The notes below the pieces were generated by a model, which did not search any database, was not told the origin of the DNA, and saw only the letters and a program-made list of their open reading frames with translations. Below are positions 1 through 47,244 of a stretch of DNA of 64,000 nucleotides, in pieces. Origin of the DNA: Pleodorina starrii. Its lineage: Eukaryota; Chlorophyta; Chlorophyceae; Chlamydomonadales; Volvocaceae. A program made the translations under genes and the position numbers. The stretch covers positions 908,501 to 972,500 of the forward strand of contig BRXU01000033.1 of assembly GCA_030267565.1 (NCBI GenBank), written 5' to 3'. The stretch's first letter is position 1. The number at the start of each line of letters is the position of its first letter.

Positions 1-1790
1 TCACAGTGCCACCCGGAGTGGTTACGTTGATGCAAGACCGGTATGGATCCTGAAGCCGCGAGATGCCAAAGTCCGCAATCTTGGCCCGACCCCTGGAGTC
101 CAGCAGCACGTTACCGGGCTTGAGGTCTGCGAGGAAGAGAGATATCGATGGGATAGCCGCGTGAGGTGGGGGGCTGATGGCTGGGGAGTTGAGAAGCAGC
201 CTGCTGGTCGATGGCGGCGGCGATGAATGTATGGAATGGACGTCATGCATGTGCGTGTATGGCAAGAAGGGAGGCATGCACGCATGTGCAGGTCCCGCTA
301 CTGTAAGTCGGCAGCACATGAAGCAGCAGACGGCTAATAGGGCTGCCCTGACTGGCGGCGTCTTTCCTTTTTGAGGTCTTTTCCCCTTTACTATTTGCTG
401 TTGGCGGTCGTTGCCCGGGGGTCCGCAGGAGGTGAGGCAGGTCGGTTCTCGAGGTACCACAGGCCGGTATGTACACTCACAGACACAAATCAAAAAACGG
501 CAGCATGTAATTATCGCAATCCTACCAGTGGGTCCCAGACCTCATTTCCGAAGAGGCGATCGATCGATGGAACCACGAAAGGTAGATCTCACACGTATGT
601 ACTTCGTCAGTCTAATAAACCAACAATCGCGCACACCTCGGTGCAGTACTCCGAAGCGGTGCAGGTGCGCCAAGCCCTCCGCCATGTCGCGGGACAGCTG
701 CATGCATGTGCAGACACAGGAGAAGGACGGGAAGGCAGGGAATCCCGGTGAAGCAGCAGTGGAGCAACAGTCAGGGCTATCTACCTGGTATTGCCTGCCT
801 GCCTCTCATGTCCCGAAAAGATACAGCCCTCTTCCAGCTATCTAAGCTCCCCCACGCATCGCACATCTTCTATCTGTCTCACCCTGCCGCTCACCTGCAG
901 CACCTCCAGGTACTCCAGTCGGCGCATGTGGGGGTGGCGGATGCGGTCCCCCAGGTTGCCACCCTCACACAACTCCATGATCAGCGCCGCGAGTTGCTGA
1001 CGACGACCCAGCAGCAGGATTGGCAGCCCCAACTGCTGCTTGCCCCGTGGCGGCTGCTGCTGCGACTGCTGCTGCTGCTGTTGCCCCGCTTGAGTTAGTC
1101 GATTGTTGGTGCGGTGGTGTGTTGGATCCGATGGCGGAGGCGCTCCCTGCTGCTGCTGGCCGTCTGACGGCGACATCCCGTGGCTCTCCGTACCCTGGTC
1201 GCTGGTGCTGGTCTCGCCGTGGAGTACCTCAGTCGCATTTGGTTGTGCGGGCGTACCGGGTGCAAAGATGCGTTCCCCGCTGCTGGTGGTTTCAGTGCCG
1301 CCTCCGCTGCCGCCGTGACTGGCGGCGGCGCCTGAGGCGCTGGGACCCAGTGAGACACCCAGGAGCTGCACGATGCGCTCGCAGCACCTGTGTGGATGTC
1401 CAACCGCGGAGACGAAAAACAACCGGGTTGGTGACATGTAATTGAGTTGAAAAGCACTTTATATACTGTTGACATCATTTGGCCGCGTACATTTATCCTG
1501 CCTTGCGCCTGGAAGTTACCAAAACCCATGACTACGTACTAGCAAGGCACAGTATGCCTATATAGAACAGCAGTATGGACACAATGGCTTTGGAATGCTC
1601 GTTGCCTCACCTGAACCTGGCGGTTATCTGTGCCTCCTTGGCCAGCGCCTGCCGCTGCGCCTCACTGTCAATGGTGACCGTCTTGACTGCCACCTTGCGC
1701 CCCCGCCACGTGCCCTCGTACACCCGCCCGAAGCCGCCCACGCCGATTAGCCGGACCAGTTTGGGCGCCACCTCTGCTTCGAAGTCCACA
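1..1790 (-). other. Kinase domain of gene 1, N-lobe to activation loop (truncated by window edge)
   Basis: The glycine loop LIGVGGFGRVYEG and catalytic Lys in KVAVKTV are in exon 1611-2099. The conserved ERIVQLLG and ALIMELCEGGNLG are in exon 895-1387, separated by a Gln/Pro/Ser-rich insert of about 110 residues. GLAHLHRFGVLHR is in 637-697, and DLKPGN, ADFGISRL and DPYRSC...PGGT are in 5-126. The pattern is that of TKL/Raf-like kinases. In this copy DFGISRL and DPYRS lie in one exon; genes 2 and 3 have an intron between them. Confidence 0.85.
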
Positions 1791-4700
1791 TCCAACTCGA
1801 TGGGCGCCAGTGACAGCGACACGGGCAGGACACGGTGGGCAACGGTGCCGCCAGCGGGCTGCGGTGCCACCCCAACCGCACCGTCACCAAGAGCCAGGGA
1901 GGGCATCCGGCGGGGCACGGCCGTGTGGGAAGAGGGTGGCGGCTGAGGTTGGGCACCCGGACGCGGCTCCAGCTCGGTTGCCTGCGGCTGTAGCTCTGCC
2001 AGCTCTGGCTGCAGTGGCGGCAGTAGCAGGTGCGGTGGGAACTCTGGCAGCAGCTCCCAGGTCTCATCCACACGGCCCGTCCACGTCTTGGCCGTGTTGC
2101 TGCGGTTGCCAGGTGTTCAGTAGTATTAATAAAGGGTGTTGCCTGGCGGTTATAATGAACACCTGACTCTTTTGACCTACGTACCACAGCATGCAGCGCA
2201 GCCGTATGTATATACATGTGTCATACAAAGAGGGACCAGACAAGCAAGGGAAATCAAAATAGGGGTAGCAAGAGGCACTCACGTGAGGATCCGCAGCAGT
2301 ATACCGCCGTCGTCCTGCAGTCCCGTCACAGCAGCGGCGGCCCAGGTGTCGATGTGCTCAACCTCAGCCACTACTGCCTCTGCGGCGGTGCGGCCGCTCA
2401 CCAAGCACCCATCACCCGCCACACTCGCCAGCAGGTGCGCCCTCAGTTCCTGTGTGGTGGGCGGCGACAGCGCCGCTACGTGCGCCATGAAGGCCTCCGC
2501 GGGTACGGTAGGATATTTGGGCATTAGGATTTGTTGACCCATGGGTCCGCCTCTGCGAGGGGAGTTGCGCTGCCACCAGGCCGCATCTACCACAGAGCGG
2601 AGCTCGCCGGCTGCATTAGGGGTGGGGGGCGGCGGTAGATCGATGAAGCTGCCGTGCCAAGGTGATGAATTGATATCAATTCATGAATGGAGGCAAATTA
2701 ATGAGAACGGATGGATGGGCGCGCACGCAGTAATATTGCTACCGCTGCTGCATCCGTCCATCTCTAAGACAAATCTTACGTTGGGCTCCTTCAGCTGGCT
2801 TTTATGAACACATGCATGTCCATCGGCCTTACGTAATCATCCTAGAGACACGCAAACGTTGACCAATGCTAGCTGGAGCGACTGCGGTTCATGCGTGTAT
2901 GTTGGCTGTTTGCTAATGCGCGCATCAGCAGACCTGACCTGACCGCCGCACCTTCCGACGCCGTGACGTTTATGTCATCGACGACATGGTACGGCGGTTG
3001 CTGCTGCAGCCGATGCAACTCCACAAGCATCCCCTGCTGACCACTACCCATACTGCCTCGGTCGACACCATCCCCGCCGCCGCCACCACCTACGCCGCCG
3101 CCTTCACCACGACCATCGTGACGCCAGCGGCGACGAAGCAGCAGCAATACGGCCGCAATGAGAATGCCGATGAACGCTGCCACGGACCCAATTATGATGG
3201 CGGCTTTCTTTCCAGGGGATAGAGCTTGTGGTGGCGATGGCGGTGGCAATGGTGATTGCGACATGCTGGTAATCGCGTCCACAATGTACGGCGGCAGCTC
3301 CGTCACAATTGCGGCCTCTGTGCTTATCGTGTTGCAGCAGTAGCTGGCCTTCCATTGGCAGTACTGCGTCGATAGGGCGGGGCAAACTCGGGGTAACGTA
3401 AGGGTCAGTGGGAAACGACGGGATATGGATGGATGGTTCATGCCCGTAACGACATACCGTACTGACGCTTATGTTTTTATAGCCTAATTTTTTAGCGTCT
3501 TGAAAAGTTTGGAGAATATATTTTTAGAGCTTAATGTTTTTAGGCGGCTCAGGGGAGTTTTCGAACGAATCCTAACTTTTTAGCAAGCTTCGCAGAAGCA
3601 TGTAACTTTTTAGTGAGCTCAATTACGAGTGCATTACCTCTGGTTGTGCGCTTGCTATTAAAGCAAATGGAAGCGCATCGTCGCTTTTAAACTTGTTTGC
3701 GATGCCGTACAGCACAAACCCGCCCAGACACCCGAGCGCCTCCTGCACCCCTCGACACCGCACATCCACCCGCCCCACACGTCCTGTCGAGAGCGCCCTG
3801 ATCTTTTTAGCGGGCTTGGAATTACCCCATAAAAAACTTTTTAGGAAACTGGAGCAATTTCCAGGAAACTCCTAATTATTTTTGGGAACCTCGCACAATT
3901 TCCGTGGACGGGTTTTATGCACCCAGATAATTATATAATTAATAAAAACATTAGCGTCAGTACGGTAATATACATGATGTAGCCATATCAGGTTATGTAT
4001 TTATTATACATACTAGTAAAGCACCATAAACATATTTGGCGGAACTCCAACTTCACAGTCCTCGGCCCTAGGAAGATGCGCCACCAGCACTGCTGGCTGG
4101 TGACCCACCAGCGTTCGTTGATTGCGCGACCTACCGACAGCCCAACGCGGGCGCGGCGCGCCATGGACGGACTCACGCAGCCCTTATTAATGCCAGTGCA
4201 TTGCAAAGGTTAATGAAGGGGTGCTCTCGACGGCTTGAACGCACATATATATGAAACGTAGTGCAAAATAACTGGTTTTGAAACATACACGCAACTCGAA
4301 CCCAGAGCGTAGATTATTCCCCCAGACATGCATCAGTCGTGTACCCACACGCACTGTGTTGTCCGAGCCTTCATCGCAGTAGCTGCCTGGTGGCAGCACT
4401 GAGTTGATGTCCGTCGTCACAGGCTGCCCCTGCCCCTGCCCCTGCTGCTGGTCATCCACGCTAACGGCGGCGGGCTGCTCCCAGGCGGGGTTTGGCGGGG
4501 AGCCCCACGCAATGAAGTTGTCCAGATATGCCGGGATCCTGAGTGCGTGCGGATGGATGCGTGGGGGCGGGGCGGGAGGTTCATATATACGCGAGAGCGC
4601 TTCGCAGTATACTGCGAGGTAACAAGGCGAAGAACAAGGTTTACACCAGAAAGTGCAACGCCCGGTCCAAAATGCGTTCATGACGTCGTGTGTATACATC

Positions 4701-7700
4701 ATTTTTAGAAATGGGTTGCTGGGAGGGTGCATTCAGGTTTTGCAGCGGCGATGGATATATACGCGTCCAGGATAACACTCCACTTATCCACCGCCGAAAG
4801 CCCATCAAAGCAAGCCAAACCACATTATCAAGCCAGCTGTAACCCGACCTTCTTGCCCGCCCGCCCGCACGCACCTGGGGTTGGGCAGGCTCTGCCGCGG
4901 TAACAAAATCCTGGCGATGCCGTCGCCCGCCGAAAACGTTTCCAGCAGTGCGTTCAAGTCAGGGGTGGCCAGCAGCGGGTCCTCCGAACCAAACAGCACA
5001 GGCGTGTTCATGTGGCTGTGGCGAGATGCGGTGGTCAGGCAGGGGAGCAAGCAACGGAGGAGCCAGCAGATTTGTCACAAGGCCGAGAGATTTATCTTGG
5101 TTGTGCGCACACGCAGACGTGTATATATACAGGTACCATATTCTCATTGCTTGCACCTCTTTTACTTCCCTCCATCTCCACCCACCTGTAGTCCTGCTGC
5201 GCATTCAACTGGGAGCGGGGGTCTGTTGGCGCAATGGAGATGATGAGTTCCACGAAGTAAATCCTTGACATGCCCTCGTCGCCGTACGACTGTGAGCCAT
5301 CAGTGCCATCATTGGCGGACGACCCGCTACGCGGCACCAGCAGGTTCCCGGCGGTCGTGTTGGCGAACCCCAGGGCCAGCACATACTGCGCGCCCGGCAC
5401 TCCGTTGGCGGCGCGACTGATGTTCCACGTCAGCATGCTACAGTCCAACCCTGCTGCGTGGTAACGTGCGTGGGAAATAAAGGGCAGGCGGGCAAAGCAG
5501 CCCGCATGCAGTCGTCATGCTCCAACCAGCAAACCTGCAGCCCTTGCATTGATTGGTTCGGCAGTACCTAGCAATCCGCCGGCCGGCCAAACAAGATAGA
5601 CAGCAGTGTATCCCTTCCCCATCGAGCTCACCCTGCGCCGGGCTGGTGTACCAACACTTCATCTCGAAGAGCGAGACCGAGTTGTTACCGCTTCCAATGG
5701 TGTCGCTGCTGCTGCCGTTGCCTACAGTCGCCGGCGCCTCATCAGTGGCGTTTGGGCCTTGAAACCAGTACTGCATCTGGACGCGGTCATACAGACGACG
5801 ACGGGGGAAACACACGTTTGTGTGCATCGCAGGTGGACAACCCTGAGAAGATCGATCCATCGAGTTCCATCGGTCAATCAAATGGCTTATTCATTCGTTC
5901 CTTTGACGAGCTATCTAGCTATCATGCATGAGCGGCGACCCTCCTTATTACGTGCAGACATCTCTTGCTTGCCCACCTGAATGCTGGGGAGCGGGATAGC
6001 CTGATCGCCACTACTGTTGCCATTGTTGGATAGCCTGCATGTAGCACAAGTGTCCGGAAACCGTTTATTTCTCTTGGGGGACGACTCTATCTTGGGGTCT
6101 GAAGGGGGCGAGCGAGGTGGCTGGTCATCAGCAGAACCTAATAATTGCTTGGCGCATGCATGTACATCATGTCTCCTCAATAGCAATCTCTGTATGTAAT
6201 TATAAAACTTAGCCCCTGGCGCCCGTAATGTGGGTCGGTGTGATCGGTAGATGTTGTCGTTGGGGAGTTGGTGCTGGGATGGCAAGTTTGATGCGAGAAT
6301 GGAGTTGCATGAATGCATGACTGAAAACGATGCGTCGTATGCATAATAGTTTCCCAGCGTTGGGCCCGGCTGGGGGTAGGGGGGCTGCTGCCCCCCCTCC
6401 CCCAGACCCCCTCCCCCCCGCTGGTGGGGGGCGGGGGGCTGCCGCCCCCCATCCCCCCGCCCACACCCCCCTTCCCCCCGCGCACTCTGAATTGCAGTGT
6501 CCGTGCTAACCGTGAAATTACAAAGGAAGGCGACCTCGGCCTCAAAACGTTCATGTTTCACAAACATGCATGCAAACAAAATATATTCATTTGCGGCTTG
6601 GCGTCCAACAACCACTTTGCCACTCATGGTTTGTCCCTTGCCATTTTTGTTACTTTATGTATTCGTAATATTATTTGCGTCAAGGCCGTCGGATCGGCTA
6701 GCAGAACTGTGGCATGGTCGCGAGAACATGTTCGCACTGCAATTATTTGGATGTCGGAAAGATGAAGCGCCGCCATGTACATCGTTATAATGGACGACAA
6801 CGGTACAATATGGAATGAACTGAAGTTCCGGATGCGTTGGAGCGAGTGCAGCCTCCGACCTGCTCGGACCACGGACTCATTCCAACATCTTTCATACTGA
6901 TACATGCACTATTGCTTTTAAGATTCTGTTATAGTATTACGATTATTAAGGGCTATTAAATAGCGTTGATAGCGTATCCAGCCACGAAGGTTGCTCGTCA
7001 CTCAGCCGGGCAGACAGCCAGCCATTCATACTGATACATGCACTATTGATTTTAAATTTCTAATATAGTATTACGAGTATTAAGGGCTATTAATTAGCGT
7101 TGATAGCGTATCCAGCCATCAAGGTTGGTCGACACTCCGCCGGGCAGCCAGCATGCCAGGCAGCCACGAACAGGGCCATCACCCCCACGCAACAGACATT
7201 CAAATTCCATATCAGCTTCAGTGCCGCTGCCCTCGCGAGGTCGCTTGGAAGTGTCAAATCGTTATACGCTCTGCCGTACCGAAGTGTCACACTACATTAC
7301 GGGCCTCGCCAGCCAGGCGGGCCGTGTTGTGTTTGTCGGCCCTCCGGACTCTGTCTCCCCTCCCGGCTCCCCCTGACGGTTTCGGCGGGAGTGTTCCGCG
7401 GGCGCCTGTGTCCTGCCCTCTGCTGTTTGCTTTGTCCTTGCTTGCCGTGTGTGTGCTTGTCTTCGTCGGGGCGGCGGCGGCGACATGGTGTTGCGAAGTG
7501 CTCTGCTATGTGTCCTGAGGACGCTCTCTTGTTTGTCTGGTTTCGTTCTTCGTGCGTCTGGACCTCTTGCGGGCCCTGTGCTTCTGGGGCTCTCTTTTTT
7601 GCTTTTTCCCATTCTGAGTGATGTGCGGGCTTGGTGCTGGTGGGCCTTGGAGGCTTGGCTTTCGGCACCCCTCCGTGGGTGCCCCTGGGGTAGGATGAAC

Positions 7701-10700
7701 AGTCCGTCTAGCATGTACGGCTAGCAACCGATATGAACATCGGTTCCCCTTGTAATCCTTGCATTCTAAAGATATTCTTGGTGCTCATCACACATGTCGT
7801 CTGTATGCCATGCTCCCTTCCTTGTGCATTCCGGGCTATTTCCTCCTTATTAGATGTAAGGGGTCGTTCATGGGGAAGGCAGGCCGTTATTACGTACGGG
7901 TTTCATCTATCCCTGCGTGTTGCGGGGTGTCGTCAACACCTTCACAGTAATGCTGCTGTATCGTTACATGGCATCCCCGTTAGTTAGTGGGGCGCGTGTT
8001 ATGGGGTTAATAAGGTGTCCTATCTATGGCGCCGTATGGTAGCGGGAGGGCGGAGCTGACATACACAGGGCTGGTCGGCTCTCCAGCCATGCACGTACGT
8101 GATGTTCATTAGTGTGGACGAATAGTCGGCGGTGAGGAGCGATACAGCGGGGGACGTGTCATTGCCGGCCGCCTCCGCCGTCTGCTGCTGCTGCTGCTGG
8201 CCACCCGCAGTGCTGCTGTTGGAGGCAACGTCAGCACCAGCGGCGGCGGCGATGAGGACCGTGATGGGGGCGTACGACACCTGGAGCGAGCAGGGCAATG
8301 GCTGGGGCGTTAGTTCCCGCCCGCCAGTTAGAGGAAGCAAGGAACGAAGCACCGGCTCAGCACACACCCATCTTCTCATAGAAGTGGGGTTCCACTCATC
8401 ATACATACATGTCGTCCAACTAATAATAATGCTCCGGCGCTGCACCGCATGTACATGGTGAGTATCAAGAAGGCTCTCTGTCCAGGGCAGTACGTACTTG
8501 CAGATAAACTAACCGTCACCTCGCTCGGTATGGTAGATAGCTCGGTCCCAGCAGATTCGACACGTGCATGCAGGGACCGTGGTACGGCCTGCACCTCCCT
8601 GCCACCCCGATGTATGTATGTGTCAATTAGTACGTGCGTTTAGTCTTATATATCTCGCCTGAATTTTTCTGGGAAGAGTCGTCTCCGGCAGTAGCGGCTG
8701 GGCCGTTTGTATCAGCGGCGGAGGTGCCGGCAGAGCGGGCGGTGGCGGCGGGGAAGGCAACGACCCGCCACCGGTTGTTGACTTTGACCCGTTACCCCTC
8801 TTAGCAGCTGATTCCTGCATACGTGGTCCGTTGGGGTGGAAAGGGCTTGGAAACGTCGAGATTAGTCGTGAAATTAGTATCGAGATCCGTACAGGTAGGT
8901 ATTGTTCCGCACGCTCTCCTTCGGATCTATCGTTGTTAGTCGATCCCGCTGGTATTCGGAAAATTATTTGTTTGGATATTATTTTATAAAGACGTAGCTG
9001 CGAAAACATATTTTCAATATTTTTGCGGCAATAAATACAAACATTCGAGCTGCGGTGGAAAAACATTCTATAACGACCTCAAAATTATGGGGATATATGT
9101 ATATAGTTCATCCATCCACTTAGCAGGATTGGATAGATGAACTCTGGTTCAAATCTTGGTCCGTTAGTTAGGTTGTTACAAAAACCATCAGCGCATATCT
9201 GTAGGACGGAGACAGCCACTCACAGCAACAAATGCTTCCATCAACACATCCAACCACGACGTACCCAATCAAAATTCCTAAAGTTCCATCCTTACCTGTT
9301 CCTCCGTACATGCCATGTTGTTGAGAAAGACGTATGTCGGGGAAGCTGCCCGCATTGGCGCATAAGCGGGCCCATCCAAGAACGGCTGCTGTGATGAGTC
9401 ATTGCTGGCATTACGGCCAACGACGGCTGCGGGGCCCTTGCTGGCCAAAAGGGTGAAAAATAGGTCCGTGCCGTTGCCATCCATCACCGAGACGTTTGCT
9501 GTGGCCGCACTACCGTCGGCTGGGATGGAGATAGAAGACGAGAAGGGAGGGGCCATACTTACGTGTATGTATGCAAGCGAATGGAGCATCTTTTGTCATT
9601 TGCGAAGTAGATCGATCGACCGGATTCCATCAATGCATTTTTGTCAATGTTGCATACATTAAACTGGACAGTGATGCATCACCACCGTCCCCGCACTAGA
9701 ACAAAAGGAAATGTGTAGGATAAGTGCTAGACGGCGGGCGGGGCGTTGTCTTCCACCAGACCGGTCGGCAGAAAGAGGTCTTTCAAGCTTGCCCGGCGCC
9801 ACAACGCTTACCCAACACTGTCACGCTCTGGAATGGCCGCACGACGCTGCCGCCTGGCCAGGCGTCCTGGGGCGAGTTAAAGCGCATACAGCGGAAATTT
9901 AAAGACGCATTGCGTGCTTAATTAGGCCGATGAGCCTACAGCCCAGCCCTTTCCTGAACTATTCCAACGTCCGTGCATGCATGCATGCATGGCTGCTTCC
10001 GCTTCACCCCCTTCGTTGACCAATCTATTTGCTGTCTATCTCCGGCATCTTCCGACCAACTCACCACCTTCCCGGCACGTTCCCCCTCCCCCTTAACTAA
10101 CCCACCTGCAGCACCAGGCCCCTGACATTGGCCGGCGCAGGGCCGTCTGGCTGCTCCTCGTAGTCACTGAACTCGCTTTCATCCCCGCTGAACACCATCC
10201 GCTCACCGGCAGTGAAGGTCCAGCCTAGAGCCCAGGAGCGAAGGGCGGGCACCTGCTGCTGGGCGAACGGGAGGGAACAAAGCTCAAATACCACCCCGAA
10301 GGGATGCGAAACGAATTTCTCCTCCATTCGTCGCCGTTGCCGATGTAGAAAACACAACATATATATGTCCACCTTGCTACGTAGCTTGAGCGCAGTGCTA
10401 CTATCTAGGCACACGCTTCATTCCGGCTTGAAATCCAATCAAGGCGTGCGGTGGACAGGAACCCGGCTCGGCTCCTCGCTAATGGCGCCCGGCCGTATGC
10501 CCTGGTGACCCAGCCACGCACCGACTGCTGTGTCGTCTTGATCTGCCAGTAGCCTTTGAAGTCAGGGCCCTCCGGATCTTCTACTACCGCCCAGTAAGTA
10601 ATGGACACAGCACAGGTGCCGGGGGTCGTTGAAAGCAAGGCCCGTTGGGGGGAGGGAGCTGCTGCCGGCAGCGACGGCGGCTGGTCCGGCGATCGCGATG

Positions 10701-10998: not shown

Positions 10999-11356
10999 AA
11001 AGGGCACGGATTAGGGATTTTGTCGCATGGCCATCACCCTAAAAACCGCTTTCCCTAGTGGCGTTACAGCGGGACTAACGAAAGGTGGAAATCCTGGCCG
11101 CCGACCATTGGGTCGTCGGTGTTTGTCCCCTCACTTTACATATAGTGATGTTATGTATGTAAGAAGCCAGCTGGTACTAATGAATTGTTTTGTTGTAAAC
11201 TATCTCAAGTTGCGCTCCGTTATTCTCGTGTCGTCGAGCAGGCTCGTGACCTAACCAACCTTGGAAAGAGCATTCGAGCAAATGCAGATGAGCCGGAAGC
11301 CAAACCAGATACTACATACGAGATACTTCTATGTTTGGTATCGTATGTACTTTTTT

Positions 11357-11397
11357 GGGCGGGGCCCCAGCGCGAAGCGCCCAGGGGGGCCCCGCCC
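11357..11397. repeat. Perfect 12-bp inverted repeat hairpin, GGGCGGGGCCCC arms
   Basis: Arms 11357-11368 and 11386-11397 are exact inverse complements around a 17-bp loop. A third copy of the same 12-mer lies at 12472-12483, in the orientation expected for the far end of an element starting at 11357. Confidence 0.7.
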
Positions 11398-11644
11398 TGT
11401 AGGATTGCCCATGTCCGTGTCTGGGTTCTGGGATTAATTGGACAAGTGCAGGCTTTCGGCCAACGGAAAGGCTGCATAAGTAAAAGATTACATTCTTTAT
11501 TGCACGGTAAATTTATTATTGGAACCCAACATCGCATGAGTACAAACCAGTTTGGCAGTCTCCATGGACCGAGGCCGAGGTCAAACCATCACCTCTCGGC
11601 CTATAATTAATTCCAGAAGAGTCATCGTTCCTTAAGGTGGAATT

Positions 11645-11839
11645 CTGACATGACGGCGTGAAATGAATCTTCGTTTCGGAAACAAACTATGTTTGCATTG
11701 CAAACATTCTTCCCGCGACCACACCACAGCAGCTCTGCTAGCCGGTCCGATCGTCTTGACGCATAATGCTATTACAAAGGTTGCAAGGTGCAAACCATGA
11801 GGGGCAAACTGCTGGTTGTTGGACGCCAAGCCGCAAATG
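11645..11839 (-). repeat. Dispersed repeat, copy 2 (inverted relative to copy 1)
   Basis: The reverse complement aligns with 6588-6781 from catttgcggcttggcg to the cgccgtcatgt end. It lies about 0.65 kb upstream of the gene 1 start codon. Confidence 0.7.
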
Positions 11840-12179
11840 CACGCATGATGCAGCGGTCTTCTGCGGGCCGCCCAACAAGTCCAGTCGGCAACCTAGGGGA
11901 TGGACTTCTACATTCCCTGTCCTAATGTTAAAGGAGTCAAGCCTCCTCTACGGCGAATACCTCGGTAGCGAAGCCTGTGCACTCTCGTCGGCAACTGCAC
12001 GTCGTCGCAACCCTCGCAAACAGTTCCGCTGTCCTTCTATTGGCAAGTCAGCCTGCGTGATGTGTAAATGATACACTCCATGTCTACTGTCAAGTAACTT
12101 CAGCCAATGCGCTGGCCGGAAGAGTTGCACAGTGCCGAGACGGTGCACGATGCTAAACATGGGTCGGATTGCTGAAGCC

Positions 12180-12445: not shown

Positions 12446-12617
12446 CTCAACTTAACCCGTACGGATTTAGTGGGGCCCCGCCCTTTTTCCGGCTTCAAGG
12501 AAGCCGACACCAACCCCTTGTCGGCTGACTTCCGCAAAGCTGCTGCAAGGAGCGCGGACCGCCGAGAAAACAGGACACGAAGAGGGCGCGAGAGAGAGTT
12601 GCCTGACAATGGACCAT

Positions 12618-12622
12618 TTACA
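12618..12622 (-). terminator. Candidate poly(A) signal for gene 2 (TGTAA on minus strand)
   Basis: TTACA on the plus strand reads TGTAA on the gene 2 strand, the usual chlorophycean poly(A) signal. It lies about 0.88 kb past the stop codon, and I saw no closer copy. A five-base motif occurs often by chance, so support is weak. Confidence 0.3.
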
Positions 12623-31200: not shown

Positions 31201-31261
31201 AGCGCCGGGGGGGTTGGGAGCATGGAGGGCGACGGCGGCGGCGACGGCAGCGCATGGACCC
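28254..31261 (-). other. Long low-complexity C-terminal tail exon of gene 3
   Basis: A 3.0-kb exon encodes about 1,000 residues rich in Gly, Pro, Ser, Ala and Arg. It shares ordered islands with the gene 2 tail: ALPSPPPSP, RRPLQLSPRPRSGS, LPRPPPSP, RSFAQMAAA, FFSARSRHDPQTSED, NGAPRRRRGS, ARWWPWWLFRRP, GLPYPYPYSP. It ends at a stop at 28254 after an added Gly-rich extension that gene 2 lacks. Confidence 0.8.
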
Positions 31262-37200: not shown

Positions 37201-40200
37201 CGGCAGCTGCTCCTCAAGAGCGTCCATGTCCGATGTTTGCTGCTCCGAAGGCGGCGGCAACAGGTCCTCCGGCGGCTGCTGCGAGGCGGGCGCCGGCGGG
37301 GAGCCCCATGCGATGAAGCCGCGGACGTAGGCGGGAATCCTGGGCGGGGTCGGCGAGCGGAGATTACGCGCACGCCTCTTCGAAGTCGGCAATGTTGCGG
37401 GTCAGGTCAGGGCCACAGAACCAAGCAGATCAGCGTTGGGCTTTTTTTATGCAAAGCAGCTCGACAACGCTGCTTCCGCCCCGTCCGGTATCCCTCTGCA
37501 CCCGTCCCGCACCGCACCGCGGGTTTGGCAGCCGCTGCCGCAGCATGACGATACGGGGTGCGCCCTCGCCCTGTCCTGCCGAGGCGTTGGCGGGGGCAGC
37601 CGATCCAGAGCTTGTGGGAGCCTTCAGGCTGGTCTGCTGCTGGCCCAGGATGGGCGTGTTCAAGAAACTGCGGCGAGCGGGTTTCGGGGAGGAACAGTCG
37701 AGGTCAGGAGAGAGAGAGACGAGCGGTTGGTGTCCCCCCGCTGTTCACAGGTCGCATGGCATGCAGCACGCCAAAGCGCGAAGGAAGAAACTGGACAGCA
37801 GCGTCCGCCTGCCATCACCTCTTCACCTGCCTTCCCTCCTGCCGCCTCCCCCGCTCTCCCTCCTTCCGGCCGTGCTGTCACGACAATCCCCTCCAGCCTC
37901 GAGTGTACACCTCTCCCTGCTCAAGTGCACGCCCCCTGCTCTCCCCCATTCAACCCCCACCTTACCTGTAGTCCTGCCGCGCGTCCATTCGTGCGGGTGT
38001 GGTGGGTTCAATGGAGATAATGAGCTCCACCGCGGGCAGCTGAATGTCCTCGTCTTCGGAGCCAGCCACTGCGGAGCCGGACTCCGACCCGCCGGCGCCC
38101 CCGGTTGGGTTGGCACCTGCTGCTGCTGCTCCGGTCTCCCCTCCACCGGTGGAGTTGGTGCTGGTGGTCCCATTCGTGGCGTTGGCGGATTGCGGCGCCA
38201 GGTTCCCCGAGCCGGGCGCGAAGCCCAGGGCCAGCACGTACCGAGACCCGCGGACTCCCGGGACGCCGCTGCTGAACAACCAAGCCAGCGCGCCACACCG
38301 ATTAGCTGGAGTTGGACACAGGGGAGGGGAGGATTTAGGGTAACACGTTGGTCCACCTGGGCCAGCGCTTTGATTTCCCGACCCTCCCGACCCGACCCTC
38401 CAAGGCCATCCCGACCCGACCCTCCCGACCCGACCCTCCATGGCCTCGTGTAACCCCCGCACACCGCTGCAGCAGGGCAGCTTGGATCCCTGGTCGACGT
38501 TTTAGCTGATAACCCCGGACACTTGCCCTCCCTCCAGGAGGTCCCTCTGCAGGGCGCCGAGCCCTGCCCGGTCCACTCACGCAGTGCGGCCGAGGTGTCC
38601 GAGCACTTGAGCTCGAAGGGCGGCTCCGAGCTGCCGTTGCTCTCATTCGACGCTCCCGGAGGTGACCACGACTCGTCGGGGCCCTCAAAAAAATACTGGA
38701 TCTGAACCACCACCACCGTATAGGCCACGCGACAGCACATGACGAAAAGGAATGGGACGACGTGCGTCAGCGTCAGCGAGGCATGACCTTGTTGAGAGTT
38801 ACGGAACATTGAGCGACGACAAGTTTGGACTGGGCAGCAACAATACGGTATGTGGCATACAACCTTAAGACTACGCGGGGTGTCTTCCCCGGGAGTGCAC
38901 ACCTGCGACACGTCAGATATGGCCCGGCGCAATACGCAGCAGGAGTGCCCCTGGGCGACGGCCGCTAGCGCCCTCCCCCCCTCCGCCCACCTGGACAGTC
39001 TCCAGTGGAATGGGCCGGCGGCTGCCCACGTTGGTGATCCTGCATGCGGAGGCGCCCAAGGGGGCGAGCACTCATCTTACGACGTCAAGAGCACGATGGA
39101 ACACGCCAAGCAAGTCCAGGCATCCAAGATCCTCTGGGTCCACTGTCAACCGCCGAGGTGGCGGGCAGCAGAGAGAGCTACAGCTCGCGGTTTCAGGTGA
39201 CAGAGGGCGTCTTGCCGCCGCGGTTGCCACCGGGCGCAAGCACGGGCGCCGCATCGTGTACCGGCGCCGTACATGGGGCGCAACGGGGAAGCAAGGTTGC
39301 GTGACCAGGAGCGCCACCAGCAGGCGGGGTAAGCGGGGTGCGGTGTCGCGACCCGTCCCACATCCCCGCACTCACTTGATGTACATCTGGGTGAACGAGT
39401 CGGAAAAAAAGACCGACGCAGCCGAGGACTCGTTAGCGGCCGCCAGCGCCTGCTGCGCCGCACTCGCATTCGCGTCGGCGGCGCCGGTACCGGACTGCGA
39501 CCCGACCGTCATGTACGTGATCGGCATGTAGGACACCTGCAACACGCACGCGCGCAGTTTGCAGCATAAAGCGACATTAGCGGGCGCGCCAGACGCGGTC
39601 GCAACCTCCAACCCCCTTGTCTGGAAGTGGTCGGCCGGACACCCTTTCCCTAACAGCCCCATCTACTCCTTTCCCGCCCTGCCGTCTCTTCTCCTCACCT
39701 CCAGCACTCGGGGGATCTCGGTCAGCAGCGGCTCAGCCACCTGTGTCAGTGGGGGCGGACGCAGAGGAGGAGGCGAAGGCGCCGGCGAACCGCTGGACCC
39801 GCCCAGGCCGCTCCGCGCTGCAGCGTCCTGCGCGGGCGGGCGCACACCGGCCTCGGGCGCCTTAGCTGTGTAGGGTATCACCGCAGCTGCCCCATCGAGG
39901 TGGCGGCATGTCAGGGCCCATCGTCTCCAGACCCGCCCAGACAAACCTTCCCACTCTCTCTCCATACGTGCCTGCTGCCGCGACGCAGCCGAGCACGCAC
40001 ATACAAACACCTGCCGGCTCGCCGGCCCCCCGGTCCCACCCGGGGGCACGTACCCTCGCAAAGCCCATCAGATCCCGCAGCGAAGAGCAAGCCATGTTGT
40101 TGAGGTAGACATTGCTGGGGGGAGCGATCCGCAGGGGGGCCGTGGATGGGCCGTCGAAGACGGACGAGGCGGCGCCGTCGGCCGCCGGGGGGCCCTTGCG

Positions 40201-43200
40201 GCCGAACATGGCGATGGCGAGGGAAGGCCCGTTGGCGACAATCGTGCCGTTACCTGATGAGGAAACGACGAGAAGAAGCGGGCAGTGGCGTAACGGCGGG
40301 CCCGCCGCGAATTGGTGCTGATGCTAGGAAGAAGCAAACAGGACCCAAACCCGCAAACCCGCCCTGTGTAGGGCTCCTAGCGCGGCTTGCCCAGTTGCAC
40401 TACCCCGTCTCACCCAGCACTGCGACGCTCTGGAAGGGACGGACGATGGTGCCACCCGGCCAGGCATCCTGGGGCGAGGAAAAGGGCGCCGTACAGTACA
40501 GCTCACGGTGATGACGGAGATCAGGGCATACCTCCTCCCAGCCCCCAGCCCCCAGCTGCCAGTTCCGGTTTCCTTCCCAGCCCTCCGCCTCACCTGCAGC
40601 GTGGCGCTGGTGACGTTGGCGGGGACTGTGCCCGGTCCCCCCGCGTCATCGCTGAATATGTCCTTGCTGGACACCAACCGCTCGCCCGCGGCGAAGGCCC
40701 AGCCCAGCGCCCAGGAGCGGATGGGCGGCAGCTGCGCATGAGAGGCGAGGGCAGTAGGGAAGCAGGGCAGCAGGTGGAATGGGCGCCCACACGCAGAACG
40801 CACGGGCTCGAGATGCTCAGCTGGGACACACGGGCGCTACCTGAAAGCTGAGACAGATGGAGCGACCCTGCTGAGGTTGTGTGGCCGTGTGGAGGTTGGG
40901 AATCGACGTGGGGCTGGGCTGGGCTGCGCCTGGCGGCCTGACTGTGTGGTCAGACCCGCGGCACGGCCCCCATCGCCCTTGCCCTTGCCCGGGCCCCATG
41001 CCGAGCCCTCGCCCCGCCGTCCGCACCTGCTGCGCGGCGGGCACCAGCTTCCAGAAGCCCTGGAAGACCGGCCCCGAGCCGGGATCCGTCGGGTCGCCCA
41101 CGCCCGCGCCGTACTGCAGCAGGACCGCGCAGGCGCTGGCGTTGACAGTCGCCATGGAGGAGGCGCCCCCCGTCGACGAGTTCAACATCACCACCGGCGG
41201 CGATTGCTTCTGCTGCGCCAGGCGGCGGCGGCCGCGGCTTGGAAGGGTGCCCTGCATGCGTACAACCTCCATTGGCTGCACTGACACGGCGGAGGCGAAC
41301 AGCTGATGGCGCCTTGCGTCGCCGCTGGATTGGCCGGCGGGCGGTCCGTCCAGTGCACCTCCGCGAAGGACGAGTCCGTCGTACAGCTCGTTGCCGCCGC
41401 CCGCGGAAGCTTCCGCTCGAGTGGTGGGCTGAACGGCAGCAGCAGCACCAGCCCTTGGTTTAGCCGCTTCCGCTGCCGCCTGCGTCATCGTTGTCACCGT
41501 CGCAAGGCGCCGTCCCGTTCTGTTCGCCGGGGCGCTCCCCGCTGGGACCGGGCCGACCACGGGAGGGGCTGCGGCAGCGGTCGCGTTCGACGTGACGTTG
41601 GCGCTGGCACCCGCCATGGTGCCCGCCTGGGCGTCGGTGGCGTTGCCGTCGGCGCTGGTGTTGTTCGGCAACGCCGTCTGCGTCCACAAGGGCTGCACAT
41701 CCGCCACCACGGGGCCGGCCGATGCACAACAGTACACCTCAACCAGGCCGCAACTCTGCGCGGGCAAACAGGCGAAAGAACCAGGGGCGCCCTCAAACCC
41801 ACCGTCAGCTGCGATGGCAAAGGTTAGATCATGGAAGGAACGCGGGGACGCGTGGTACGGCACCTCAAGGCACTTCAGAAGGATCGATACGCCCCAACAC
41901 GGCAAACTGGTCATGGCCAACGTCGGAGGTGCCTCAACCCTGATCTCAGCGCCCTAGCGTGGAAACTAACACGGCAGCTGCTTATAACCGCCCGCCACTC
42001 GAAACTGCTTGGCCGACCCATTCGGCGCGCCGACCCACCCACCAGCGTTCCATCGCCCGCCTCTTGACACGCGCTGTTGGGCGGCAGCTGTGAGTTGAGC
42101 TGCTCCAACCGCTGCACCGCCGGCGGCGAGGAGGGCAGCTGGGCGACGGGGCCGGGCGCCGGTGGGGAGCCCCATGCCAGGATGCCGTCCACGTAGGCTG
42201 GGATCCTGAGGACGGGGCGTTGGCGGAGGGTGGCATCGGTGGACAATACTACTGCGAGCACACGTGCAGGGGCGCTATTATAGCAAGATAAGGGGTCCTA
42301 CGGTAACAGGAGCTGCATCCGCCAGGGCCCAACGAATGCCAGCAACGTTAGCGCGGCCGTCCTTGCGGCCTTGCGCTATCTCCCAGCTATCCGCTGCGGA
42401 GGTCCCGCACCTGGCGTTGGGCAGTGTCTCGCGCAGCACCACCATTCCAAGCTCCCCTTCGCCGCTCGAGGCTTCGGTGGCGCCCTGCGACATCTCCCGC
42501 TGGCCCCGAACGGGCGTGTCCAGGTAGCTGCAGGGAACGGGTAGAATACAGGTGTATGTGTGTGTGTGTGTTGGGGGGATCTGGGCGGGTGTAAATTCCA
42601 ACCGCGGGGAGATGGGGTCACCAAGCTGGCAGCTGGGGCGTCAGCGCGCGACCGCACGTGACCTCCACCGAGCTAGGGCCGGTGGGGACTCAGTGGACTC
42701 GTTGCGCCTTGGCGTTCCTCCCAGGAGGCTAGGGACCCAGGAGGCTAGGGATACAAGGAATCACCCTTGGTTGGCCATTTACCCTTTGCCTTCCCGGCCC
42801 GATAATCCCCGCAGGGATACCGTTTACGCACGCAACGCTCTTGTCACAGCAACGCCCACCTGTAGTCCTGCCGCGCGTCCATTCGTGCGGGTGTGGTGGG
42901 CTCAATGGAGAGGATGAGCTCCACCGCGGGCAGCTGCGGAGGTCCCGAGCCGGCGGTGCTCTTGGTCCCCTTTGTGGAGTTGGCGGATTGCGGCGCCAGG
43001 TCCCCGGAGCCGGGCGCAAAGCCCAGGGCCAGCACGTACCTTGCGCCGCGAACATCGGGGAGGCCGGCGCCGTACACCCACAACACCGCATCGCAGCCCC
43101 CGCCTGATCAGGGTTTCCGGGCCGAGCGTCGTGACAAAGCACAAAGTTGCGGCAGTGAGTGGGACGTGGCAGGTGGCTGGAGGGAGTGCCGATGGTGCAA

Positions 43201-46200
43201 ACTGTGGAGAAATCCGTTAAAGCGATGGCGAAAGCCACCAAACAGAGTACATGAGAAAAGTACTCAACGACCGTCACGGTGCCCCCCTCCACCTCTTTCA
43301 GCTGCTTTGGCCCATCGCCAACGACACGCGCTTCTGTAACTTACGGAGTCCCGGCGTGGTGTCGGAGCAGGAAAGCTGAAAGGGCGGCAGCAAGGCGCTC
43401 GAGTTGCCACTGGCAAGGCTGGAGCCATTACTCGCCCCCTGTCCATCCTCCGGGAGGCCCCACGGGTCCCACAGGTCAAGCGGGCCCTCGAACCAGTACT
43501 GGATCTGGGTGCAGGACCGGGCAGGGCGAGGAAAAGATGTCGGGACGCACCAGGTGAACGGCGGAGGGGCGCATGCACGCGGTGAGAGGCAGCCGAGCCG
43601 CAGCGGGGCGGCCGACAGCAGCACAGAGAAGATCCAAGGCAGGTGTAGTCACCAGCCAACAAGCCAGACACCGTCACCACCGCCTTCAAAGCGCAAGCCG
43701 CCCCCTTCAGGAAGAAGTGGCGCCCGTACCTGAATGTCCTCCAGCGGCAGAGCACGCTGGCTGCCAACGTTGGTGAGCCTGCGTGCGCACAACCGACATG
43801 TCATGCAGACAACCTTCCAATTCCGCAACATGTGACGATATGCCCTTGGCACTGCCCGGTGGAACCGACCGCGATGCGGCACCCACTTGACATAAAACTG
43901 GGTGTAGGGCTGCGGAAGGTAGGCAGCGGAGATGCCGGCGCTGGAGTTCAGGTCCGCTCCGGACACCAGCGTAATCGGCATGTATGTCACCTGCGGGGAG
44001 GGGGAACACACGCGCCGCAAGCCCACATTGGCCCCATCGTTCATCGTGTACAGGGGCGCAGTTGTGCGCGGCGCCACGTGCGCCTGTCCAGTGCACACCG
44101 CGCGCTGCACTGCAGAGGTCGCCTCGCCCGCTTCCGGCTTCCAAATAAAACATGGCCAGCTGTGGTGCGGACCCTCGGGTACACAACGGCCAAGCACGGC
44201 CCGTCTGTCGAAGTACAGTACAAGCCTCCCGACGGTATTCACCTTTCTCACGGGACCGAGCCCACTCCCACGCCACCCCTGGCCCGCACCCACGTACCTC
44301 CAGCATCCGGGGATACTCCTCCAGCAGCGGCTCAGCTGATCTGATTGGCTCGCGGGTGGGCGGCGACGCTGTGACGTTGGAGGCCATGCTGGCCCGGGCC
44401 CCGTCCTGCTGGGATGAAGGGGCGCAATGACGGGCTCGCTGCGGACGTCCTCTCATCCCCTTTCAAGGGGCTCCGTCGTCACCACCACGGCCTCTACGCC
44501 CCGACCCACCGCAAGCCCCTGTCCAGCATAACATGCCCCATGGCCCCGCGGAATCCTTTGCGCTCCAGCTCGAGTACACAGGGGCAACCCGTGTGCTGTC
44601 AAGCTCGGTGGCGGTGGGAACACCTGGACTGGCCCGCAAACGTACCCCATACGGTATGCACATGCAGAAGTATAGTGCGATTGACGCTGAGGACCCACCC
44701 ACCCTCGCAAGTTTCGCCAGGCCAGGCGCTGGCGAGCAGGCCATGCCGCTGAGGTACACATCAGAGGGTGGTCCAAACCGCAGCGGGGCGGAGGGCGGGC
44801 CGTCGAAGGCGCGCGGTGAGGAGGCGCTGGCGTTGGCTGCTGGAGGGCCCCTGCGGCCAAACATGCTCAAGGACTGCGCGGCTCCGCTGGCGGCCAGCGG
44901 TGTGCCACCTGCGCGCGTGGGGGCCAACGGAGATCCGGAAGCGGATACACGGGTTGATGGTGGTGGCCGTCGGGATGCGCGGGCGGTCGAACGGAGCCGA
45001 GTCCCAGCAGTAATTGCCAGCCGCAGTTTAATAAACGAAATGACTCGGAGGGAGAGAGAGACATGTCCACAGCGCTACTCGCCGTGGCGAGCAGCCGATC
45101 TCAAGGCGGCACCTGTGTGAGTGTGTGTGTGTCGAGGGCGGCACGACAGCACGAATCATACATATCAACTGGACATCGCAGTGTTCTCCCCGTCTCCCAC
45201 CGAACCTTACCCAGAACTGCGACGCTTTGGGCAGACGTGACGTTGCCGCCGCCGGGCCGGACGTCCTGAGGGAGACAGGCAGAAGGCAGGAGAGGGAAGG
45301 GGAGGAAATTACGACATGCGAGCTGCTTAGGCCAAGCACCGTTAGAAGGTCGGCGACGGATGACACACTATTCTTTCACCCTTGCCAGCTACAGGCGCTG
45401 GCCGGCGCCCCTTGGCCCGCAAGGCATGGTTCCGAAATGCTAAGCCGCATGCACGACACCACCCACCGCTACCTTCTCGCCCTGCCCAACCACACTCCGA
45501 CAGGCTGCCCAACCACCCTTCATCCATGTCCGGAAGACAAGCGTACTCCTTGGTCCCTTCGCGCCCCGGTCTCGCACAGCATGGTACCCCGCTTCTGGCT
45601 CGGCGCAACTCCGCCCTCTCTTGCCGCCGCCCAGCTGGACCTAGCCGTACCTGCAGCCGCACGCTGCTGATGAGCGCTGGCGTTGTGGTCGGCCCGTCCT
45701 CGCCACTGAAGACGTCCCGGGAGGACAGAAGCCGCTCCCCGGCTGAAAACGTCCAGCCCAGGACCCAGGAGTGAAGGGGCTGAAGCTGGGTTCGGCAGCA
45801 GGAGTTCATCAGCAGGGGACAGCGGAGGGCAAGGGAAAACTTGAATCTCTTTGGGTGGTGGCGCGAGGTGAGGTGAGATTAGTGCGATTGCAGGTGTCAA
45901 CACAGGCGCACGCTCCCGCGAGGAGCGTTCGCGTGGATGCATGCAGGTTTCAGTCCGGTGCCAGGTTTCAATCAGCCAAGCGTGGCAGAAAACACTGAAT
46001 GAAGGTCTGGGTGAAATGTCCCAAAAGCCCCCAGGGCGCACCTCCGAGGATGCGACCGTGAGCCTCCATGACGCCTGGAAGATCGGCCAGCTGTCCGCCT
46101 GCGTCGGGTCGCCCACTACCGCGTCGTATCGCAGCACGGCCGCGCAGGCCGTGGTGTTGATGTCCGCCGGGACGTTGACGTTGATGGCCGCCAAGGCGGC

Positions 46201-47244
46201 AGCAATGTCGCTGGTGCGGTTCGCCGCCCGGGGCGCTGGCGATGGCTCAGGCCGCTGTAACTGTTCCGCCGCCAGGAGCGAGTGGCCGACAGCGGCCGCA
46301 GCGCCGTCACCACTGCCGACCCCGTGCACGCGCACGACTTTGAGAGCGGGGCCTCCACGTGTGGCATCACCGGACGCAGCGGTTGCGGCGGTTGCGGCTT
46401 CGTCCGCGCGACGGCTGCTCGGGGTTGTCAGATCCCGACGGAGGAGGTGCCTGCCCGTGTAGCCGCTGCCGGAATCGTAGCTTTTCCCGGGCCGGCACGA
46501 GAGTGGGGGTGCGGGCCCGCCGCAGCCGCCGTACATGCTGGTCAGGCTGCCGCCAAGCAGCTGGCTGTACAGGTCGCCGTCGTTACTGCCGCTGTCATCA
46601 TTGCCGCTGGGCGGAGAGGAGTTGCTGCTAACGGGAGCTGCCATTGTCGCCGCCGCGCCGGCCCCGCGGACGCCAAATGCGGTCGCCAGGGCGTCGGTTA
46701 CGCTGCCCGCGCTGGCGCCTTTGCTGCCTGCTGTGGCTGCCGCCTTGGATGCAGCGGCCTGCTGAGCCGCTGGTGCCGCTGATTCGGAAGGCGCCACCAG
46801 CAAGGCGCGGCTGCGAGTGCCATCGCCGCAGCCGGAAAGAGATGCCGGGGAAGCCGCTGCGGCGCCGTTAAGCAGAGGAGGCAGTGGCCTGGGCAGGCGG
46901 GTTGCTGGCCCACGGAAGCCGTAGTGAAGTCGCGGGCGGCCGTCCTGCCCGACACCGCCGCCCCTCGTAAACCCAGCGGTGTCGTCTCCATCCGCGCTGA
47001 TAGCCACGCCTGCGGTCGCCGGTACTGACTCGGCGGCGGCGGCGGCGGCCGACAGGCCCATTGCGGGGACCGCCGACGGGAGGGCCGCCGTCGCCAGAAC
47101 CACCAAGAACATCAGCCAGCAGCAGTGCCCCGAGCCAAGGAGCCGGCCGCGGCTGCGGCCAGGCGCCACGGGCGGGGCGCTGCTCTCCCGTAGCCCGCTC
47201 CGCTCCGTGGGATGTCGGTAACCCTCCCAGACGTGACACCGCAT
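28254..47244 (-). CDS. Array gene 3: receptor-like kinase with two tandem CBM2-CBM3 ectodomains, complete
   Basis: Putative receptor kinase of 3,637 codons. Exons: 46042-47244, 45651-45785, 45211-45265, 44703-44908, 44298-44408, 43887-43990, 43730-43778, 43345-43504, 42860-43103, 42411-42527, 42043-42205, 41027-41755, 40594-40731, 40414-40468, 40054-40253, 39699-39827, 39376-39536, 38991-39039, 38581-38701, 37966-38305, 37518-37667, 37162-37339, 36170-36881, 35422-35863, 34448-35239, 33662-34145, 33343-33403, 33033-33109, 32863-32907, 32562-32631, 31974-32248, 31634-31784, 28254-31261. Start at the ATG at 47244; hydrophobic segment WLMFLVVLATAALPSAVPAMG. Copy A of the ectodomain joins copy B through exon 41027-41755, which has no membrane helix; a single helix lies after copy B, then an intact kinase and a 1,002-residue tail. 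Alternative: two genes, but there is no stop, kinase or terminator after copy A and all phases run through. Confidence 0.83.
31634..34620 (-). other. Kinase domain of gene 3
   Basis: LVGVGGFGRVYEGTWRG and KVAVKTV in exon 34448-35239; ERIVQLLGASLG and ALIMELCEGGNLGGRI in 33662-34145 around a Gly/Pro/Ser/Gln insert of about 110 residues; HRDLKPGN; DFGISRLR; DPYKSC..QQGGT; PNYMAPELFNG; DERADLYSLG; MYEALTRKVPF; a Gly-rich extra loop; LPDWVPRGLADLIAACW..NPRARP. All key catalytic motifs are intact. Confidence 0.87.
36170..36881 (-). other. Gene 3 Cys motif and transmembrane exon
   Basis: SCGVADSYCC, a long Pro/Ser stalk, and a helix TAAIAVGVSLGTVALFLGVG with LYAYLRPDCGG (about 36515-36612). A Gly/Arg and Ser-rich stretch (SSSSRSSSSS type) follows, then HRLQQQQPCLVSTNIHVTASEG. 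This is the only clear membrane helix between the N-terminus and the kinase. Confidence 0.82.
37162..41027 (-). other. Gene 3 ectodomain copy B (CBM2-like plus CBM3-like)
   Basis: SWALGWAFAAGERL, DAWPGGTIVRPFQSVAVLG and NVYLNNMAC complete the CBM2-like fold begun in the fusion exon. The CBM3-like part reads VSYMPITYMTV, MYIKITNVGSRRPIPLETVQ, IQYFFEGPDESW, LKCSDTSAAL, RYVLALGFAPGSGNLAPQS, VELIISIEPTTP, RQDYR, FIAWGSPPAP. CSDT and GFAPGSG.LAPQSAN are shared with copy A but not with genes 1 and 2. Confidence 0.72.
38376..38450. repeat. CCCGACCCTC-type tandem array in a gene 3 intron
   Basis: Irregular copies of a 14-bp CCCGACCCGACCCT-like unit, interrupted by short caaggccat/ccatggcc spacers, lie in the intron between the two middle CBM3 exons of copy B. 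Confidence 0.75.
41027..41755 (-). other. Fusion exon linking the two ectodomains of gene 3
   Basis: It begins like a pre-membrane exon (SCGLVEVYCCASAG) and ends like a first exon (CAVLLQYGAGVGDPTDP..FQGFWKLVPAAQQ) with the normal GTGCGG donor. Between lie about 190 residues rich in Ala, Thr and Asn with NTS, NAT, NVT and NRT sequons and several RR-type basic sites, but no hydrophobic helix. It is 729 nt and phase 0 at both ends, so it joins the two halves seamlessly. Confidence 0.82.
42043..47244 (-). other. Gene 3 N-terminus and ectodomain copy A (CBM2-like plus CBM3-like)
   Basis: The first exon has 401 codons: signal or anchor, long Ala/Gly/Ser-rich stretch, then CAAVLRYDAVVGDP..FQASWRL. 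CBM2-like elements continue with SWVLGWTFSAGERL, DVRPGGGNVTSAQSVAVLG (the usual Trp replaced by Arg) and VYLSGMAC. CBM3-like elements: VTYMPITLVSG, LTNVGSQRALPLEDIQ, IQYWFEGP, LSCSDTTPGL, RYVLALGFAPGSGDLAPQS, VELILSIEPTTP, RQDYRW, IPAYVDGILAWGSPP. The exon ladder is the same as in genes 1 and 2. Confidence 0.72.
42557..42571. repeat. (GT)n microsatellite in a gene 3 intron
   Basis: About seven GT units followed by a G run. Confidence 0.8.

Follow-up and report, generated by a model that had tools for sequence, protein, structure and literature searches.

Receptor kinases with predicted CBM2-CBM3 ectodomains: a tandem array in Pleodorina starrii and its relatives in two classes of green algae

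Introduction

Why would a green alga place two carbohydrate-binding modules (CBMs) of bacterial type outside a membrane helix and a protein kinase? The question arises from a stretch of 64,000 nucleotides, here called the window (C33:908501-972500 of the Pleodorina starrii NIES-4479 assembly), whose minus-strand open frames show repetition. An original prediction had seen in it tandem receptor-like kinases (RLKs) with four ectodomain copies, each with a CBM2-like and a CBM3-like pattern, and had proposed that they sense cellulose. Receptor kinases in chlorophytes are described as few and patchy (PMC10868138). The assembly is reported to comprise 95 contigs and 136.1 Mbp, and its Funannotate annotation drew on RNA-seq from asexual and sexually induced samples (PMC10256686); the genome searched here was 136,057,477 bases in 95 contigs.

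The four copies were confirmed on the minus strand, but they belong to three receptor-kinase genes, gene 1 holding two modules (A and B) and genes 2 and 3 one each (C and D). One tandem array of seven genes with eight modules (A-H) is present on contig C33. The proteins are predicted to share a fixed order of parts: signal segment, CBM2, CBM3, a Cys motif (YCC), a Pro/Ser/Thr-rich stalk, a transmembrane (TM) helix, juxtamembrane blocks and a tyrosine kinase-like (TKL-like) Ser/Thr kinase. Our preferred reading, with a probability of about 0.6, is that these are single-pass green-algal receptor kinases whose paired CBMs bind a glycan, either foreign or from the wall or matrix of the alga, and thereby trigger the kinases.

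Results

Identity of the two ectodomain domains

By profile comparison the second domain of the ectodomain is a CBM3 by descent. The algal sequences aligned with 29 bacterial CBM3 sequences end to end, up to the DYSF motif and the WG-x-P end, with an hhalign probability of 97.1-97.5% (P 7.7e-12 over 135 columns with eight algal sequences, P 5.3e-11 over 134 columns with nine). With nine sequences the score was 74.7, while the best of 100 column shuffles scored 19.0, so that 0/100 reached it; cross-controls gave 0.2-0.8%. When 18 CBM3 domains from outside Pleodorina were used, the probability was 99.1% over 144 columns. Searching the PDB with a four-module ectodomain profile gave five chains at E <= 10, all of them CBM3, and with a seven-sequence profile nine chains at the same threshold, of which eight were CBM3 (best 2.6e-6) and one, 2imd, was unrelated. 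Four of the seven members of the public ectodomain set matched Pfam CBM_3. The spliced motif reads QDYSF, QDYSY or QDYSH, matching the DYSF motif of CBM3; the form QDYRW, listed in the original prediction, proved to be an intron read-through.

The first domain is a CBM2 by descent, an assignment that is thin from Pleodorina alone and is settled by sequence comparison with its relatives. Three of these lie above the Pfam CBM_2 (PF00553) cut-off of 24 bits (P0014 25.4, P0021 27.7, P0022 26.2). Fourteen CBM2 domains from outside Pleodorina aligned with bacterial CBM2 at 97.3% (P 2.7e-11, 72 columns), with 0/60 shuffles reaching the score, and the same fourteen aligned with the Pleodorina CBM2 domains at P 1.8e-16, the cross-control against CBM3 giving 0.2%. 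In the PDB the P0022 domain matched Cex chains (6.4e-5) and endoglucanase D (3.7e-4), the range being 6.4e-5 to 4.3e-4; one further match, at E 0.33, was taken as chance. A scan of viral contigs for CBM2 found no relative.

Several results weigh against these assignments. Scanned singly with Pfam CBM_3 (PF00942), modules A, B, C, E and F and the Sanguina protein gave E-values of 0.029, 7.7e-4, 2.9e-3, 4.5e-5, 7.1e-3 and 2.3e-3, and only module E lay above the cut-off (24.2 against 22.4 bits), with A, B, C, F, Sanguina and the consensus below it. No CBM_3 match was found in P0004 or in module D, of which an incomplete piece was scanned. The precomputed CBM_3 labels of P0012 and P0022 were not reproduced by Pfam scans at E <= 0.05. 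Pfam CBM_2 was listed for three of the eight Pleodorina modules, all under the cut-off (A 9.3e-4, F 0.093, H 0.082), and gave no match in B, C, D, E, G or the consensus. The CBM2 region of modules A-D returned 17 PDB chains, none better than E 0.12 and none clearly a CBM2. Using hhalign, the Pleodorina CBM2 domains scored 0.6% against a first small bacterial set (n=8) and 33-51% over 33 columns against sets of n=20 and n=17; with the set of 17, 0/100 shuffles reached the score. NCBIfam had no match for either consensus domain.

Such weak single-sequence scores, most of them under the Pfam cut-offs, would suit generic beta-sandwiches in which the CBM likeness is a convergence of short motifs. 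This is very improbable given the end-to-end profile alignments with their null controls, the PDB matches and the cut-offs passed by module E and the relatives. Pfam and the profile-profile comparison, relatives included, thus bear out the predicted CBM2 and CBM3, with the qualification that the CBM_3 cut-off was passed by a Pleodorina module whereas that of CBM_2 was passed by relatives and by no Pleodorina module.

The ligand faces

Residues of CipA (CBM3) and Cex (CBM2) were mapped onto 26 algal CBM3 and 22 algal CBM2 domains. We take D56, H57, R112 and W118 of CipA and W17, W54 and W72 of Cex to be the cellulose contacts. As aligned, most of the crystalline-cellulose contact residues are lost in both folds. 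In CBM2, W17 is kept in 0/22 and W72 in 0/22 (Y in 1), while W54 has become F in 19, Y in 2 and I in 1, leaving F or Y in 21/22. In CBM3, W118 is kept in 0/26 (F in 3, gap in 6) and R112 in 2/26, in a region where gaps make the alignment register uncertain; D56 is D in 2/26 and E in 9/26, and position 57 is W or Y in 17/26. The bacterial sets, including the reference, keep W17 in 17/18, W72 in 11/18, W118 in 21/30 and R112 in 27/30. Y67 of CBM3 is uninformative, being present in just 3/30 of the bacterial set. Core residues are retained, namely CBM2 W38 in 22/22 and, in 26/26 CBM3 domains, Y127 as Y or F together with the WG-end tryptophan. That the planar strip is lost speaks against canonical crystalline-cellulose binding but not against glycan binding, and crystalline cellulose held by the canonical flat faces appears an unlikely ligand.

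Relatives in other green algae

A search with the kinase region of Sanguina P0007 returned 96 proteins at E <= 1e-20, of which 28 were taken as green-algal or close environmental relatives (P0001-P0022, P0024-P0028 and P0030). A narrow family of Pleodorina and Sanguina, suggested by ectodomain homologue searches, was overturned by this result. Scanning the 28 with family hidden Markov models (HMMs) gave CBM3 in 26/28, CBM2 in 24/28, the YCC motif in 25/28 and a TM-like stretch before the kinase in 25/28. The HMMs were built from the Pleodorina modules with P0012, P0014 and P0022 (and P0007 for CBM3), and those rows and P0001-P0006 are self-hits. The named CBM-bearing sources include Pleodorina, Sanguina, Chlamydomonas eustigma, Monoraphidium, Micractinium, Chlorella, Myrmecia, Coccomyxa, Prototheca and Auxenochlorella, which we take to belong to the Chlorophyceae and the Trebouxiophyceae. 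The design of CBM2, CBM3, Cys motif, TM helix and TKL kinase thus occurs in both classes, and the volvocine framing of the original prediction was too narrow. Where family members have names these are mostly hypothetical protein or protein kinase and once nodulation receptor kinase; many rows are nameless. Chlamydomonas reinhardtii and Volvox carteri were not named among the 96 matches, which is no proof of their absence.

Ectodomain, one TM helix and kinase stand together in the gene 2 model and in the public protein P0001. P0016, an assembled transcript by its TRINITY name, matches CBM2 and CBM3 in part and also has YCC, a TM-like stretch and a kinase; in this case at least, one RNA holds both ectodomain and kinase. 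The predicted joining of the two parts is therefore upheld by RNA-seq-aided gene models and by a transcript-derived protein of another alga.

The kinase tree was made from 43 of 44 chosen rows, Dunaliella P0018 being left out, with a midpoint root and a long-branch warning. The 26 CBM proteins grouped together with Scenedesmus P0027 (93/90); within this group the Pleodorina proteins were a single clade (100/100) and the subgroups matched the algal classes. The eight Pleodorina modules came out as one clade (100/99) in a tree of the ectodomains. Vertical inheritance since before the two classes separated agrees with the kinase tree, although the dating is something that we infer. Other observations count against a single family of uniform design. 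The support of the family group is under the strong-support mark of the tool, and no branch separates the 26 CBM rows from all others, as P0027 falls among them. In the scan of the 28 relatives neither CBM was found in P0018 and P0027, and no TM-like stretch in P0014, P0018 and P0026. CBM2 was also not found there in P0006 and P0007, both of which start inside the ectodomain, nor YCC in P0014, P0018 and P0025. The Coccomyxa model P0026 carries an N-end HLH and the Scenedesmus model P0027 an N-end DnaJ, and these are perhaps fused gene models.

Among six Pleodorina paralogues, a count that leaves aside modules A and G, ectodomains were less alike than kinases in 14/15 pairs (mean identity 50 vs 73%), and the ectodomains were 41-52% identical except for one pair at 88%. 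Divergence beyond that of the kinases is as would be expected of recognition domains; the faster change could also be relaxed constraint.

The G-loop, VAVK, HRD, DFG and APE motifs are present across the three window genes, which are thus predicted to encode catalytic kinases. The first named PDB chains among the best 60 of 562 were TAK1, one labelled EGFR, MLK4, TNNI3K and CTR1; TAK1, MLK4, TNNI3K and CTR1 belong to the TKL group. Gene models, hydropathy and kinase motifs agree with the earlier proposal of an ectodomain outside and a TKL-like kinase inside the membrane.

The array and its gene models

A genome search with module C gave 49 matches at E <= 0.01, all on the minus strand of C33 between 838,888 and 953,409. 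A juxtamembrane/kinase probe gave 28 matches, of which 21 were the seven gene sites on C33. The seven weaker matches lie off the array; six of them begin at probe residue 84 or later (>= 84) and the seventh, on C2, has E 4e-4 and 29% identity over probe residues 42-146. No further gene copy was found elsewhere in the genome by these sequence searches, the counts of which are lower bounds. When the CBM domains of P0022 were joined and used as the query, a single C33 exon matched at E 0.24, and there was no other match at E <= 1. Genome searches with Pfam CBM_2 and CBM_3 gave no match and also missed the known array, and so are uninformative on absence. Seven long open frames in the part of the window from 48000 to 64000 were scanned and had no Pfam domain at E <= 0.001. 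The same species is reported to have seven GCS1 paralogues clustered within about 100 kb (PMC10256686), and long tandem arrays are therefore not unique to the kinase locus.

All four modules of the window, on the minus strand like every feature given below, were modelled exon by exon with 11 exons each: A at 46146-42043, B at 41131-37162, C at 25378-21153 and D at 10614-4355. Module A was curated by eye and B, C and D were searched under its intron phases, so that part of the agreement in phase follows from the method; for modules E-H, which lie outside the window, the 11-exon plan also fits when those phases are imposed. As an independent check, modules B, C, D, E, F and H were compared with six public proteins, in which 52/66 of their exon peptides are letter-identical. 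Readable junctions in these proteins agree with the imposed phases except between exons 3 and 4 in D and H, the public proteins there starting exon 4 7-8 residues earlier than modelled. The 14 unmatched peptides are B exons 1-7 and F exons 1-3, unmatched because the public models start within the ectodomain, and one each in C, D, E and H. Early automatic models were discarded, since a first Viterbi gene finder ran the entire strand together and a stricter one mis-split the genes; the final models come from curation by exon and phase followed by comparison with public proteins.

Gene 1

Gene 1 (28254..47244) is modelled as a kinase with modules A and B, a Pro-rich stalk, a TM helix, a TKL-like kinase and a long cytoplasmic tail. 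A hydrophobic N-terminal signal segment is predicted at 47062..47112. Module A has a CBM2-like domain in four exons (44703..46146; Pfam CBM_2 as above) and, in six exons, a CBM3-like domain with the segment up to the Cys motif (42043..43990; Pfam CBM_3 and hhalign). A bridge exon (41027..41755) then carries the Cys motif of A, a linker rich in N-glycosylation sites and the first exon of B. It is open in frame, with no stop and no TM-like stretch, and the window accordingly has three kinases and not four. That A and B lie in one gene is a prediction, as no public protein spans the join, and the 5' end, the 3' end and the A-B join are all model-based. Module B follows with its CBM2-like domain (40054..41131) and CBM3-like domain (37162..39536), whose exons 8-11 are identical in P0006; from exon 8 onward gene 1 matches this public protein. 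Hydropathy on P0006 places the TM helix at 36531..36605. The kinase domain (31974..34581), recognised by Pfam in public paralogues, has the G-loop and VAVK at 34581-34519, LKPGNVLLD at 33107-33081, DFG at 33065-33036 and APE at 32628-32605.

Genes 2 and 3 and shared extras

Gene 2 (13502..26131) has 22 exons and encodes 2287 amino acids; its model shows 0 mismatches and one gap against public protein P0001 (PLESTB_001596600). It comprises the module C CBM2-like domain (24268..25378), the CBM3-like domain (21153..23649), a TM helix by hydropathy on P0001 (20574..20645) and the kinase (16306..19284; Pfam Pkinase 1.8e-42 in P0001), with VAVK at 19284-19222, HRDLKPGN across the 17511/17321 junction, DFG at 17277-17248 and APE at 16887-16864. 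Gene 3 (1..10998; public protein P0004, PLESTM_000574700) is cut by the window start and extends to about window position -1828 by a coarse mapping in which 617/1583 residues of P0004 were placed. Its module D has a CBM2-like domain at 9296..10614 and a CBM3-like domain at 4355..8280, exon 6 starting at 8280. The first call for linker exon 5 was a forced junk match and was replaced by a likely exon upstream at about 8796-8659. The TM helix is at 3136..3207 (hydropathy on P0004) and the kinase from the N-lobe to DFG at 1..1744, with APE and the remainder beyond the window start; HRD is seen in P0004.

Some extras recur. The Pleodorina kinases have a Gln/Gly/Pro-rich insert in the N-lobe (window 18770-18530 and equivalents), and Sanguina P0007 is without it. 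Very long Pro/Ser-rich cytoplasmic tails of 700-1000 amino acids (window 31315-28254 and 15633-13502; P0005) share the motif RFFSARSR-DPQ. Two conserved juxtamembrane blocks with no Pfam label, WWQ-N ... LSPPTT-ELR and LRIL ... TWTGR ... TWELLP, occur at window 35837-35817, 20171-20151 and 2584-2564, and a form of the second is also seen in Sanguina P0007.

Discussion

How might such a protein work? The paired CBMs would bind a glycan, whether from the wall or matrix of the alga itself or from another organism; binding of the ligand, or its loss, would cluster or release the receptors, and the kinases might then act on each other by trans-phosphorylation and on downstream targets. P. starrii has expanded the family into its array of seven genes. 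A fuller account, to which we give slightly less than an even chance, is that this is an undescribed receptor-kinase class predating the split of Chlorophyceae and Trebouxiophyceae, in which bacterial-type CBM2 and CBM3 were recruited and their flat cellulose faces remade into a receptor for wall or matrix glycan. It would be a eukaryotic counterpart of RsgI, and its Pleodorina members a recognition array.

That the ectodomains bind environmental cellulose and switch on its use seems quite unlikely. The ancestry of the two domains would suit it, as would the aromatic residues left at CBM2 position 54 and CBM3 position 57, the reported use of cellulose by Chlamydomonas reinhardtii (PMC6032398) and the binding of cellulose by bacterial RsgI CBM3 sensors (PMC4711584). 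The genome also has GH9 cellulase-type exons (21 matches, at C3:6366600-6369741, C5:5155747-5161631 and C16:2655714-2708593), apparently of several genes and perhaps three in tandem on C16, so that cellulose need not be irrelevant to P. starrii. Set against this is the absence or near absence of W17, W72, W118 and R112 from the algal domains when the bacterial sets mostly keep them, and the cellulose sensor of the original prediction is on this ground not supported.

The array might instead serve self/non-self, mating or partner recognition, its diversified members telling apart glycans of other cells or microbes. Seven tandem genes, six ectodomains so different from each other save for the one close pair, and the double module of gene 1 speak for this, which we nevertheless regard as rather unlikely: one protein was listed per other named species, in a search restricted by protein length and by clustering at 90%, and diversification therefore looks like a feature of Pleodorina and not the core role of the family. 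Also improbable, to much the same degree, is that the ectodomain serves chiefly to tie the membrane to the wall or matrix, the kinase reporting tension and not a ligand. Two CBMs in series, a Pro-rich stalk and linkers rich in N-glycosylation sites would suit an anchor, and in plants the malectin-like CrRLK1L kinases are discussed in relation to sensing of the cell wall (PMC10868138); sequence, though, does not separate anchoring from ligand sensing. The glycan-binding receptor kinase remains our preferred reading.

Parallels exist in other systems. The RsgI anti-sigma factors of Clostridium thermocellum (RsgI1, 2 and 4 with CBM3) likewise have an outer CBM3, a TM helix and an inner signalling part, and are concerned with polysaccharide sensing (PMC4711584), but they are bacterial, their CBM is C-terminal and the inner part binds a sigma factor with no kinase, so that the likeness is a functional analogy and no whole-protein homology is claimed. 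The CrRLK1L kinases of land plants (FERONIA type) share a carbohydrate-binding-type ectodomain, one TM helix, a kinase and a link to wall sensing (PMC10868138; PMC6038381); their ectodomains are of other families, and a FERONIA-named row and its neighbours fall outside the algal group in our kinase tree. Scaffoldin CBM3 and the CBM2 of Cex and endoglucanase D are of the same domain families by profile or sequence but are found on enzymes or scaffoldins and keep the contact residues mostly lost in the algal domains. The putative CBMs of the GH9 cellulases of Chlamydomonas, Gonium and Volvox are algal carbohydrate-binding candidates too, set apart by their description as Cys-rich and outside known CBM families (PMC6032398). 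In the available parts of a survey of chlorophyte RLKs, receptor kinases of the same phylum, no CBM2/CBM3 ectodomain is mentioned; two RLKs each are tabulated for C. eustigma and Coccomyxa and these may include members of the present family (PMC10868138). No CBM2-CBM3 algal receptor kinase was found in the titles and abstract openings of the papers listed, a literature in which subscription journals are mostly uncovered, and this is no proof that the family is unpublished.

The occurrence of a CBM2-CBM3 receptor family in two algal classes provides named genes and ectodomains for study in algae with different walls. It amounts to a natural experiment on two classical cellulose-binding folds, which appear inside receptors without their cellulose face, and it gives a testable lead on how green algae might sense walls or polysaccharides.

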